In this document: positions 43,056-64,000 of the stretch, piece by piece
Position numbering within the stretch: position 1 is the first letter of the stretch
Layout: every line of letters begins with the position of its first letter
Assembly (NCBI GenBank): GCA_015060885.1
Contig: SUXO01000008.1
Coordinates: 1-64,000 of the forward strand
Source of the DNA: Bacteroidales bacterium
GTDB lineage: Bacteria; Bacteroidota; Bacteroidia; Bacteroidales; Bacteroidaceae
DNA: 64,000 nt
Reading direction: 5' to 3'
Program-made: the position numbers and the translations under genes
The notes under the pieces: model-generated
Database searches by the model: none
Told to the model about the DNA's origin: nothing
The model's input: only the letters and a program-made list of their open reading frames with translations

Positions 43056-43086
43056 TTGCATAAGTGTTTCAAATGTTTTACCTTTG
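43056..43086 (+). promoter_or_regulatory. Bacteroidota-type promoter for the cobalamin-uptake operon
   Basis: TTG N20 TACCTTTG immediately upstream of the riboswitch. Confidence 0.6.
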
Positions 43087-43094
43087 CCGGTGGA

Positions 43095-43265
43095 TAAAGG
43101 TGTAACCCACCCCTTTACGGGTGGTGTTAGTAAAAGGGAATCCGGTTAAAATCCGGAGCTATACCCGTAGCTGTGTGTCCATAATTGTTTCCGGTAATCT
43201 TTTTAGCCACTGTCGCTTGGCGATGGGAAGGCAACCGAAAACGGACAAGCCAGAAAACCTGCCTT
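43095..43265 (+). promoter_or_regulatory. Cobalamin (B12) riboswitch
   Basis: AAAAGGGAATCCGGTTAAAATCCGGAGCT, GCCACTGTCGCTTGGCGATGGGAAGGC and AAGCCAGAAAACCTGCC (B12-box-like) blocks in canonical order. Confidence 0.93.
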
Positions 43266-43319
43266 TTCCTTTTGTGTATTATGCAATGCCTCGGGTAAAG
43301 GCTTGGTAAACCTTTTTTT

Positions 43320-59668: not shown

Positions 59669-59706
59669 AACGACAAAAAACAGCCCGCGGGCTGTTTTTT
59701 GTCGTT
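59669..59706. terminator. 38-bp perfect palindrome, terminator after cysE
   Basis: AACGACAAAAAACAGCCCG|CGGGCTGTTTTTTGTCGTT. Confidence 0.88.
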
Positions 59707-59901
59707 AAAATTCATTGTTTATCCACTCGCTTTTAGAACTTTACCGGCATAAATATCTTTTTTTATAAAATGGTGAAATTTTTGTATGCAATGGTTGATT
59801 ATATACAATATTTTTTACTATCTTCGCAGTTGGTAAGGCAAAATGCTTGCAAATTGTGAGCTAGCGGGTTGCCCGGCCTTGAATTTATAAAGAGATAAGC
59901 A

Positions 59902-59964
59902 ATGTTTACACAGAAAGCATACCACCATCATCACCGCATCCTATCTCAAAAAAGAGCAGGGTAA
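59902..59964 (+). CDS. Histidine operon leader peptide
   Basis: ATG...TAA encoding MFTQKAYHHHHRILSQKRAG with four consecutive His codons (CAC CAT CAT CAC), upstream of hisG. Confidence 0.85.
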   Translation: MFTQKAYHHHHRILSQKRAG

Positions 59965-60036
59965 GCGCTGCTGTGTGTGTAACTTCGGTGTAACAAGGAT
60001 AATGAGCTTACCTGCAAGATGGTGGGCTCTTTTTGT
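59960..60036 (+). promoter_or_regulatory. his operon transcription attenuator (antiterminator/terminator)
   Basis: Terminator GAGCTTACC-TGCAAGAT-GGTGGGCTC + TTTTTG (60004-60034); GGTAAGC at 59960-59966 (overlapping the leader stop codon) is exactly complementary to GCTTACC at 60006-60012. Confidence 0.8.
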
Positions 60037-60064
60037 TTTTTGAATGTAAAAAAATAATGATGAT

Positions 60065-60916
60065 ATGTTAAGAATAGCTGTACAGACCAAAGGTCGCTTG
60101 AATGAGCAGAGTATGCAATTGCTGCGTGATGCAGGTGTGACAATCAAGGAGGAGAAGAGGAAATTCCTTATGCGTGCCTCCGACTTTCCCGTGGAGGTGC
60201 TCTTCCTTCGCGACGACGATATTCCGCAAACCGTTTCAATGGGTGCGGCCGACCTGGGCTTCGTGGGTTACAACGAGGTTGCCGAGCGTGGTTACGACGT
60301 GGATGTTTTGCAGAAACTCGGCTTTGGCGGTTGCCGCATTTCGCTTGCAATTCCCAAAGCAGACAAATATGAGGGGTTGAGCTACTTCAATGGCAAGCGC
60401 ATTGCCACATCGTACCCCAATGTACTGACGAAATTCTTTGAGGAGAATGGCATCAAGGCCGAAATACACACAATAACCGGTTCGGTGGAGATTGCTCCCG
60501 CAGCAGGCCTTGCCGATGCTATCTTCGACATTGTGTCATCGGGCGGTACACTCATCACCAACGGCCTTGTTGAGGTTGAGCAGGTGTTGCAGTCCGAGGC
60601 GGTGCTCATCGGCACTCCCGGTCTTTCGGAAGAGAAGATGGCCATTGCCCGCCAGCTGATGTCGCGTTTCGAGTCGGTGCTCAAAGGTGCAGGCAAGAAA
60701 TATCTTCTGCTCAACATTCCCGAAAGCGCGCTCGAAGAGGCTGTTGCCCTGCTCCCTGCAATGCGCAGCCCGACCGTTATCCCCCTTGCACAGAAAGGGT
60801 GGTGCTCTTTGCAGACTGTTGTCGACGAGAAACAGTTGTGGAACGTTATTGAGAAACTCAAAGCCATCGGCGCCGAGGATATTCTGGTGCTGGCTCTCGA
60901 AAAAATTGTATTGTAA
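60065..60916 (+). CDS. hisG: ATP phosphoribosyltransferase
   Basis: LRIAVQTKGRLNEQSMQLL; DLGFVGYNEV; DIVSSGGTL; regulatory C-terminal domain. Confidence 0.95.
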   Translation: MLRIAVQTKGRLNEQSMQLLRDAGVTIKEEKRKFLMRASDFPVEVLFLRDDDIPQTVSMGAADLGFVGYNEVAERGYDVDVLQKLGFGGCRISLAIPKADKYEGLSYFNGKRIATSYPNVLTKFFEENGIKAEIHTITGSVEIAPAAGLADAIFDIVSSGGTLITNGLVEVEQVLQSEAVLIGTPGLSEEKMAIARQLMSRFESVLKGAGKKYLLLNIPESALEEAVALLPAMRSPTVIPLAQKGWCSLQTVVDEKQLWNVIEKLKAIGAEDILVLALEKIVL

Positions 60917-60922
60917 GGAACT

Positions 60923-62206
60923 ATGATTGCAAGATATATAAACCCGGCAAAAGAGGAGTGGGCAAAACTGTGCGAGCGCATGGTGGCCGACGATGCTGTT
61001 ATTGCCGGTCGTGTAGATGCCATTATTGAGCGTGTGAAGCGTGACGGCGACAAGGCTGTGCGCGAGCTTGCACAGGAAATCGACGGCGTGGAGCTTGCCT
61101 GCATAGAGGTGAGCGACGAGGAGAAGCGCGAAGCATTCGCGCAGGTGTCGCAGGAACTTAAAGATGCGATAGCTGCCGCGGCGCGTAACATCACACGCTT
61201 TCACATGGCACAGCGTTTCAACGATATTGAGGTGGTGACATCGCCCGGTGTAAAGTGTGTGCAACGTGCTGTTCCCATTCAAAAGGTGGGGCTTTATGTT
61301 CCCGGCGGAACGGCTCCTCTCTTCTCCACGGTGCTTATGCTTGCCATCCCGGCAAAGGTGGCCGGGTGCAAGGAGATTGTCCTTTGCACGCCCGTGAACA
61401 AGCAAGGCAAGGTTGCTCCGGCGGTGCTGTCGGCAGCAATGGTGTGTGGCGTTGACCGCATCTTCAAGGTGGGTGGCGCACAGGCTGTGGCTGCTATGGC
61501 CTACGGTACCGAGAGTATTCCCGCTGTGGACAAGATATTCGGCCCCGGCAACCGTTATGTGACAAAGGCAAAGGAGCGTGTTACCAACCGCGTTTCAATA
61601 GATATGCCGGCCGGTCCTTCGGAAGTGCTGGTTATGGCCGACGAAACTGCAAATGCCGCTTTTGTGGCAAGCGACCTCCTTTCACAGGCCGAGCACGGAG
61701 TGGACTCGCAGGCACTGCTCGTTTGCGGCAGTGCAGCCATTGCCGATGCCGTTGATGCAGAACTTGCCGTACAGCTCGAAAAACTGCCACGCAAGGAACT
61801 TGCCGCAAAAGCATTGGGCAACAGCCGCACAATAATCCTGCCGTCGAAAGAGGAGCAGGTTGAATTTGTGAACACTTATGCTCCCGAACACCTGATTATC
61901 TCAATGGAAAATCCCTGGGAAGTTGCAGCTGCCATTACTGCTGCCGGCAGTGTGTTCATAGGCAACTATTCGCCCGAGAGTGCAGGCGATTATGCTTCGG
62001 GAACCAATCACACATTGCCCACAAGCGGTTGGGCCCGCTCGTGCAGCGGTGTGAATCTCGACAGCTTCGTGCGCAAGATTACTTATCAGGAACTCACAAA
62101 AGAGGGTATAGAAACACTGGGCGGTACCATTGTGTCTATGGCACAGGCCGAGGGGCTCGATGCCCACGCGGCAGCAGCCCTCTTGCGTATGGGAAAAGAT
62201 ATCTGA
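60923..62206 (+). CDS. hisD: Histidinol dehydrogenase
   Basis: YVPGGTAPLFSTVLMLAIPAKVAG; FGPGNRYVTKAKE; GPSEVLV; HTLPTSGWARSCSGV. Confidence 0.96.
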   Translation: MIARYINPAKEEWAKLCERMVADDAVIAGRVDAIIERVKRDGDKAVRELAQEIDGVELACIEVSDEEKREAFAQVSQELKDAIAAAARNITRFHMAQRFNDIEVVTSPGVKCVQRAVPIQKVGLYVPGGTAPLFSTVLMLAIPAKVAGCKEIVLCTPVNKQGKVAPAVLSAAMVCGVDRIFKVGGAQAVAAMAYGTESIPAVDKIFGPGNRYVTKAKERVTNRVSIDMPAGPSEVLVMADETANAAFVASDLLSQAEHGVDSQALLVCGSAAIADAVDAELAVQLEKLPRKELAAKALGNSRTIILPSKEEQVEFVNTYAPEHLIISMENPWEVAAAITAAGSVFIGNYSPESAGDYASGTNHTLPTSGWARSCSGVNLDSFVRKITYQELTKEGIETLGGTIVSMAQAEGLDAHAAAALLRMGKDI

Positions 62207-62211
62207 CAACT

Positions 62212-63246
62212 ATGGAAATTAATGATGTACTGCGCCTTGTGCGCAAGAATATAAAGGCTCTCGCGCCATATTCCACGGCGCGTGACGAATATAAAGGAGC
62301 GTTGGGAGTATTCCTCGATGCCAACGAGAATCCCTTTGAAAATGGCTATAACCGTTACCCCGACCCTCGTCAGGCCGAACTTAAATCCATTATAGCACCC
62401 AAAAAGGGTGTGGCTGTGGAGCAGATGTTCATTGGAAACGGTAGCGACGAGGCGATAGACCTCTGTTTCCGCATATTCTGCGAGCCCCGCATCGACAATG
62501 TGGTTGCAATAGCTCCAAGCTATGGAATGTACCGCGTGTCGGCCGACATCAACGATGTAGAGGTGCGCGAAGTGCAGTTGGGCGAGGAGTTCTCACTGCC
62601 GGTCGACGAACTTCTGGCGGCTTGTGACGGTAATACGAAACTTATGTTTGTATGTTCGCCAAACAACCCTTCGGGCAACATATTCCCCGTGGAGGAGATA
62701 AAACGTCTGCTTGAAGGCTTCAAAGGAGTGCTGGTGGTCGATGAAGCATATATCGATTTTGCTTCGCAGCCCAGCCTCACCACCTTGCTTGGCGAGTACC
62801 CCAATCTCGTGGTGCTGCAAACCCTTTCAAAGGCATACGGCCTTGCCGGGTTGCGTCTGGGCCTTGCTTTTGCCTCCAAAGAGATTATGGCAATTTTTGC
62901 CAATGTGAAATACCCCTATAACATAAACAAGGCGGGTATGGAGTGTGCAAAGGAACTGCTTGCCCGTGATGTGCAGGCCGAAATTGATGTTGTGAAGAGC
63001 GAGCGCGAGCGTGTGGCGGCCGCTTTGGCCTCTTGCCCCTGCGTGAAGAGGGTGTTCCCATCCGATGCCAATTTCCTGCTTGTGCAGGTGAGTGCGGCGC
63101 GTGCTCTCTACGATGCTCTCATTGCCGAGCAGGTTATTGTGCGCGACCGTTCGAAGGTGAAAGGGTGCAGCGAATGTTTGAGAATAACTATTGGCACACC
63201 GGCCGAGAACGACAGAATGCTCGCGGTGGTCAGGAACTTTAAATGA
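62212..63246 (+). CDS. hisC: Histidinol-phosphate aminotransferase
   Basis: [48 protein letters not shown]; start at [10 protein letters not shown]. Confidence 0.95.
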
Positions 63247-63251
63247 TTATT

Positions 63252-64000
63252 ATGAAAAAGGCTCTTTTTATAGACCGTGACGGAACAATTATATGGGAAC
63301 CGCCTGTAACCGAGCAGGTTGACACTCTGGAACAGCTCGTATTTGAACCGGGTGTAATAGGTGCGCTCGGCCGCATAGCGGAAATGGATTTCGAGCTTGT
63401 GATTGCAAGCAACCAGGATGGCCTGGGAACTGCCGCTTATCCACAGGAACAGTTCGATATGGTACACAACAAGATGTTGCAGGTGCTTGCCGGCGAGGGT
63501 GTGAACTTCGACGACCAGCTTATTGATGTTACCTACAAGAGCGACAACAAGCCTACACGCAAGCCCGGTACAGGAATGTTCGGGAAATATATGTCGGGCG
63601 AGTACGACCTTGCGAACTGTTTCGTTATCGGCGACCGCCTTACCGATGTAGAGCTTGCGAAAAATCTGGGCGCGAAGGCTATTCTTTACACCGCCGACAA
63701 AGCCCGTATCGAGGAGATGCTCTCCTTGCCCTATGCCGATGTGTGCGTGCTTGCCACCGACAGCTGGGCACAGATTGCCGAGTTCTTGCGTTGCGAGGAG
63801 CGTCGTGCCACAATTGTGCGCAAGACAAAGGAGACCGATATAACCGTTACCATCGACCTCGACGGCAAGGGTGTGTCGGGCATAGATACAGGGCTGAAAT
63901 TCCTCGACCATATGCTCGACCAGATTGTGCACCACGCCGGCGTTTCGCTCGAAGTGAAGGCTGTGGGCGACTTGCAGGTCGACGAGCATCACACAATGGA
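63252..64000 (+). CDS. hisB: Bifunctional histidinol-phosphatase/imidazoleglycerol-phosphate dehydratase (partial, truncated by window edge)
   Basis: [18 protein letters not shown] (HAD), then [24 protein letters not shown]...[14 protein letters not shown]...DEHHTM (IGPD); open at the right edge so absent from the ORF track. Confidence 0.93.

Follow-up and report, generated by a model that had tools for sequence, protein, structure and literature searches.

A predicted leader-peptide attenuator ahead of hisGDCB in a Bacteroidales bacterium, with counterparts across much of Bacteroidota

The window, by which we mean the whole 64,000-nucleotide stretch of DNA analysed here, runs at its 3′ end into a histidine biosynthesis operon, identified through Pfam matches as hisGDCB with hisG in first position (Table 1). 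Upstream of this, with its stop codon 100 nt ahead of the hisG start, lies a short ORF carrying four consecutive histidine codons, followed by an intrinsic terminator hairpin whose arms (GAGCTTACC, 60004–60012; GGTGGGCTC, 60021–60029) include two G-U pairs. The initial annotation had reported both elements from the letters alone; its ORF proved correct to the base, and the 9-bp stem with adjoining U tract is likewise confirmed. Four CAY codons in succession occur once in the 64 kb, against an expectation of 0.18, and in a scan of both strands the hisG leader was the only convincing case of an amino-acid-run ORF preceding a terminator.

Table 1. Coordinates of the his leader, its candidate promoter and the downstream genes
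Feature	Position	Strand	Remarks
Candidate −33 element, TTG	59795..59797	+	21 bases before −7 box; presumed, by Bacteroidota promoter consensus
Candidate −7 box, TATCTTCG	59819..59826	+	Consensus TAnnTTTG; 75 nt 5′ of leader start
Leader ORF, MFTQKAYHHHHRILSQKRAG, with TAA stop	59902..59964	+	20 codons; coordinates rechecked
Segment 1, leader codons (anti-antiterminator 1:2)	59908..59923	+	Potential partner of segment 2 plus its 3′ flank
Regulatory His codons, CAC CAT CAT CAC	59923..59934	+	Base-level check
Segment 2, GCAGGGTAAGC, antiterminator 5′ arm	59956..59966	+	Overlaps leader stop codon
Intrinsic terminator hairpin (3:4)	60004..60029	+	9 bp, 8-base loop; also recovered by terminator scan
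Segment 3, GCTTACCTGC, antiterminator 3′ arm	60006..60015	+	Overlaps terminator 5′ arm
Terminator U tract, TTTTTGTTTTTT	60030..60041	+	Sequence check, terminator scan
hisG, ATP phosphoribosyltransferase	60065..60916	+	PF01634, PF08029
hisD, histidinol dehydrogenase	60923..62206	+	PF00815
hisC, class I/II aminotransferase	62212..63246	+	PF00155; histidinol-phosphate aminotransferase by context
hisB, phosphatase and IGP dehydratase	63252..64000	+	PF13242, PF00475; cut by window end

The heptamer GGTAAGC (59960–59966) spans the TAA stop codon and complements GCTTACC (60006–60012) without a mismatch, as had been noted earlier, although the extent of the pairing was then understated: the full 2:3 helix, formed by GCAG(G)GTAAGC and segment 3, has 10 pairs arranged around one bulged G. 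The locus had also been called a ‘complete’ attenuator, a description that stands for the antiterminator and terminator, both of which are supported, but that overlooked the upstream 1:2 hairpin. Taken by itself, the fold of the window is unexceptional; the whole leader has ordinary stability (z −0.71; dropped as uninformative about an attenuator), the 1:2 hairpin is no more stable than shuffled sequence (z 0.2), and the combination of segment 2 with the terminator arm gives z −2.1. The strong evidence for an attenuator is comparative.

We collected 238 hisG upstream regions from the same genus and family, from named Bacteroidales genomes and from a phylum-wide sample, and found a His-rich short ORF in 197 of them, accompanied by a terminator in 175. 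Within the genus the ORF is present in every region collected (21/21; 20/21 with a terminator), the corresponding figures being 51/69 and 48/69 for other genera of the family, and 60/71 and 57/71 for the named Bacteroidales set. Among families numbered f2–f34 within the phylum sample, the leader is present in all tested members of f2, f3, f4, f5, f6, f9, f16, f23 and f34, with f16, f23 and f34 belonging to other classes; no such leader turned up in f13–f15, f17–f19, f25, f28 or f29 of that sample, most of which are represented by one genome each. Outside the His run the leader peptides vary freely, which suggests that it is the codons, and not the peptide, that are under selection. Homologous hisG leaders were the comparison by which the initial annotation had proposed to be judged; across the phylum, His run, antiterminator and terminator all persist whilst their sequences change.

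Two further observations concern these regions. At three loci (L011, L016, L051) an insertion of ~143 nt with inverted-repeat-like ends, probably a dispersed element, separates the attenuator terminator from hisG. Separately, 23 of 44 genomes of the same genus are without a hisG match, some of them >90% complete, and histidine synthesis seems to have been lost repeatedly in the genus of the window organism.

The covariation check that had been called for gave a divided answer. For the 3:4 terminator, an 18-sequence genus-level alignment contains double changes in 6 of 9 pairs, with a covariation score exceeding all 500 shuffles and all slid versions. The 2:3 helix is conserved in the same alignment, where 78% of cells are paired and the best slid version reaches 61%, but there it covaries no more than column shuffles do, and in some rows a base is misaligned by MAFFT. 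We thus turn to an alignment-free comparison across the phylum, restricted to 132 loci with distinct terminator arms, in which cognate 2:3 pairing reaches −14.24 kcal/mol versus −11.34 when partners are permuted, and the 1:2 pairing of leader codons with segment 2 and its flank reaches −17.9 versus −14.3; in both cases 0 of 20000 permutations did as well, counts that overstate the significance because related loci are not independent. That said, restricting the test to distinct arms, together with the turnover of sequence from one family to the next, speaks against common descent as the sole cause: the same 2:3 role is filled by GGTAAGC/GCTTACC in the window and by the unrelated CTCAAGCG/CGTTTGAG in another family, and the cognate preference is also found inside each sequence type, though it is weak for the smallest type (7 loci, p 0.03). 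No consensus structure emerged when the part of the genus alignment ahead of the terminator was folded; the 1:2 hairpin was assessed through per-sequence folds with controls. Together these data support three mutually exclusive pairings—1:2, 2:3 and 3:4—across the loci.

The spacing of these elements is consistent with control by a translating ribosome. Counted from the first base of the final His codon, segment 2 begins at a median of 17 nt (quartiles 15–19), which is roughly the position expected for the leading edge of a stalled ribosome, and in 96% of loci segment 2 would be masked once a ribosome had reached the stop codon; the earlier model, which opposed stalling at the His codons to arrival at the stop codon, therefore fits the geometry. 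When the leader is treated as occupied, by removing RNA up to the stalled ribosome, the nascent window RNA folds as the antiterminator. Over 155 loci the median antiterminator probability is 0.89 with the leader occupied and 0.01 with no ribosome present, the latter because segment 2 then pairs upstream. Extending the RNA to include the 3′ arm of the terminator makes the terminator the favoured structure at equilibrium, even when segment 2 is unoccupied, so that the switch must be kinetic, the choice being made during RNA synthesis, as it is in classical attenuators. The sequence features that define this class of attenuator are thus seen here: codons for the end product in the ORF, an intervening terminator and an antiterminator just beyond the stalled ribosome; the upstream 1:2 hairpin is found across loci, being weak in the window sequence alone.

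With respect to initiation, the absence of an obvious Shine-Dalgarno sequence, remarked upon in the initial annotation, holds across 149 leaders, where SD-like 4-mers precede the start in 2.7% of cases against 7.2% in shuffles and where the region before the start is A-rich. In the same set, a TAnnTT[TC]G box lies ≤150 nt upstream of the leader ATG in 90% (13% in shuffles), at a median of 22 nt from the leader start; given how common and how near such boxes are, the candidate promoter in the window most likely serves the his leader. A GGTAAGG in the 5′ UTR (59832–59838) duplicates a portion of segment 2 and might likewise pair with the CTTACC in the terminator arm. Further upstream, between a serine acetyltransferase-like gene and the his promoter, a 17-bp terminator-like long hairpin (59669–59706) sets the cysK/cysE-like genes apart from the his operon.

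On this sequence evidence we consider it very probable that the leader is a ribosome-mediated transcription attenuator of hisGDCB that senses charged tRNA-His. We infer its action in cells, from start site and stalling through the order of folding to termination in vivo and the direction of response, to be as follows. RNA initiated from about 59832 would carry the short ORF. When tRNA-His is uncharged, a ribosome would stall on the four His codons and cover segment 1, leaving segment 2 free to pair with segment 3 before the terminator is complete, and RNA polymerase would then read through into hisG. When histidine is plentiful, the ribosome would proceed to the stop codon inside segment 2 and mask it, allowing the terminator to form. 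Were the leader not translated at all, segment 2 would be held by the leader codons (1:2), with termination as the default.

Could the same arrangement have a more mundane origin? A plain intrinsic terminator plus a hairpin in the 5′ UTR, accompanied by a His run and a complementarity that arose by chance, would sit comfortably with the ordinary fold energies of the single sequence and with the presence of 14 CAY ×4 runs in the 2.2-Mb genome; that the arrangement recurs at hisG, in different sequences, in the majority of families sampled from the phylum makes such a coincidence very unlikely, and we reject it on the conservation and permutation tests. The terminator would equally suit another type of cis-regulator—a T-box, a riboswitch or a protein-binding leader—next to which the short ORF is incidental. 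To this we attach hardly any probability: no Rfam family matches at gathering score and there is no credible weak match, whilst conservation falls on His codons whose distance from segment 2 varies little. Known riboswitches, the T-box and the Rfam His_leader were accordingly rejected, the T-box covariance model having no match in the window, and RF00514 (His_leader) having none in the window (gathering score, E 10) or in 20 related loci (gathering score).

It is also conceivable that the short ORF acts through translational coupling or mRNA protection rather than through termination, as the existence of related families with a His leader and no intrinsic terminator might imply; in the window, however, the leader stops well short of hisG and the space between holds a U tract and a terminator that covaries, and we judge such a role highly improbable.

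One of these terminator-less families is f23, in which all 12 sampled loci (L137, L139–L141, L144, L146, L148, L151, L156–L158, L233) have the His leader and no strong intrinsic terminator. Here the His codons mostly run up to or near the leader stop codon, and the gap to hisG is rich in C (25%) relative to G (6%), with a mean C minus G of 0.185 as compared with 0.005 (sd 0.09) for 63 ordinary 5′ gaps of same-family genomes. The gap is possibly a Rho-utilisation site, making the locus a Rho-dependent attenuator; the site would be shielded by ribosomes stalled at the final His codons, much as in the logic of tnaC. We would put forward only tentatively, as somewhat less likely than its opposite, the wider scenario in which an SD-free his attenuator goes back to the ancestor of much of Bacteroidota, one branch having swapped its terminator for a Rho site beside the leader stop. 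Other His-rich hisG leaders lacking an intrinsic-terminator-like hairpin, with less C/G bias, are found at L201–L204 (f2) and L133, L149 and L152 (f9).

The mechanism proposed for the window leader is classical ribosome-mediated attenuation of the textbook kind, usually taught from enteric bacteria, and the likeness to his and trp attenuation claimed at the outset is borne out by the same three exclusive helices and the same stall/stop geometry. The enterobacterial his attenuator (RF00514) places a leader peptide with His codons before hisG, with alternative hairpins and a terminator just ahead of the gene, in a layout more complex than the three helices seen here; the window leader shares these elements, differing in having no Shine-Dalgarno sequence and in its Bacteroidota promoter. 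With the classical trp attenuator it has helices 1:2, 2:3 and 3:4 and the stall/stop logic in common, whereas it senses His rather than Trp and its segment 2 overlaps the leader stop. The Bacteroid-trp RNA motif (RF01692), associated with trp operons, is a different motif and has no match to the window. Weinberg et al. 2010 (PMC2864571) list it among candidate structured RNAs of Bacteroidetes.

A precedent in the same phylum is from Flavobacterium psychrophilum, for which a structured, transcribed and conserved 5′ element without an Rfam match has been reported before hisG, along with clues for leader-peptide attenuation at amino-acid operons (PMC9723704); this work hinted at a related system, covering Flavobacteriaceae only and, in its main text, presenting neither alternative structures nor a phylum-wide test. 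In bacilli, hisZ and hisS* are preceded by a short ORF with a His-codon run and a premature terminator, the same combination in a different phylum and before different target genes; prior to that case, according to Naville and Gautheret, demonstrated leader-peptide systems were confined to Proteobacteria and Actinobacteria (PMC2965389). Short ORFs resembling attenuation leaders have also been noted in B. thetaiotaomicron (PMC7366714).

The his attenuator appears hardly catalogued in Bacteroidota, and what we take to be new, with priority uncertain, is how widely it is conserved across the phylum, the complete logic of three helices, and initiation without an SD sequence. The Lopatovskaya 2010 survey, cited in PMC4833913, may already list Bacteroidetes. 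A his attenuator in many families that rarely use SD sites would imply close timing between ribosome and polymerase there; it would offer a ready histidine-responsive switch for gut Bacteroidales, and it represents an RNA family missing from Rfam.

As for other leaders in the window genome, the regions upstream of pheA and thrA contain no obvious leader, and PF00218, sought as a marker for a trp leader, has no match. A cobalamin riboswitch lies on the + strand of the window at 43081–43280. On contig C58 of the same genome, 5′ of ilvD (L250), a short ORF (MKIQSLFINLVLVVVVLLEMVG) is followed by a hairpin (GCCTTTCTC/GAGGAGGGC) and a T run; judged by its sequence, this looks like a branched-chain attenuator.
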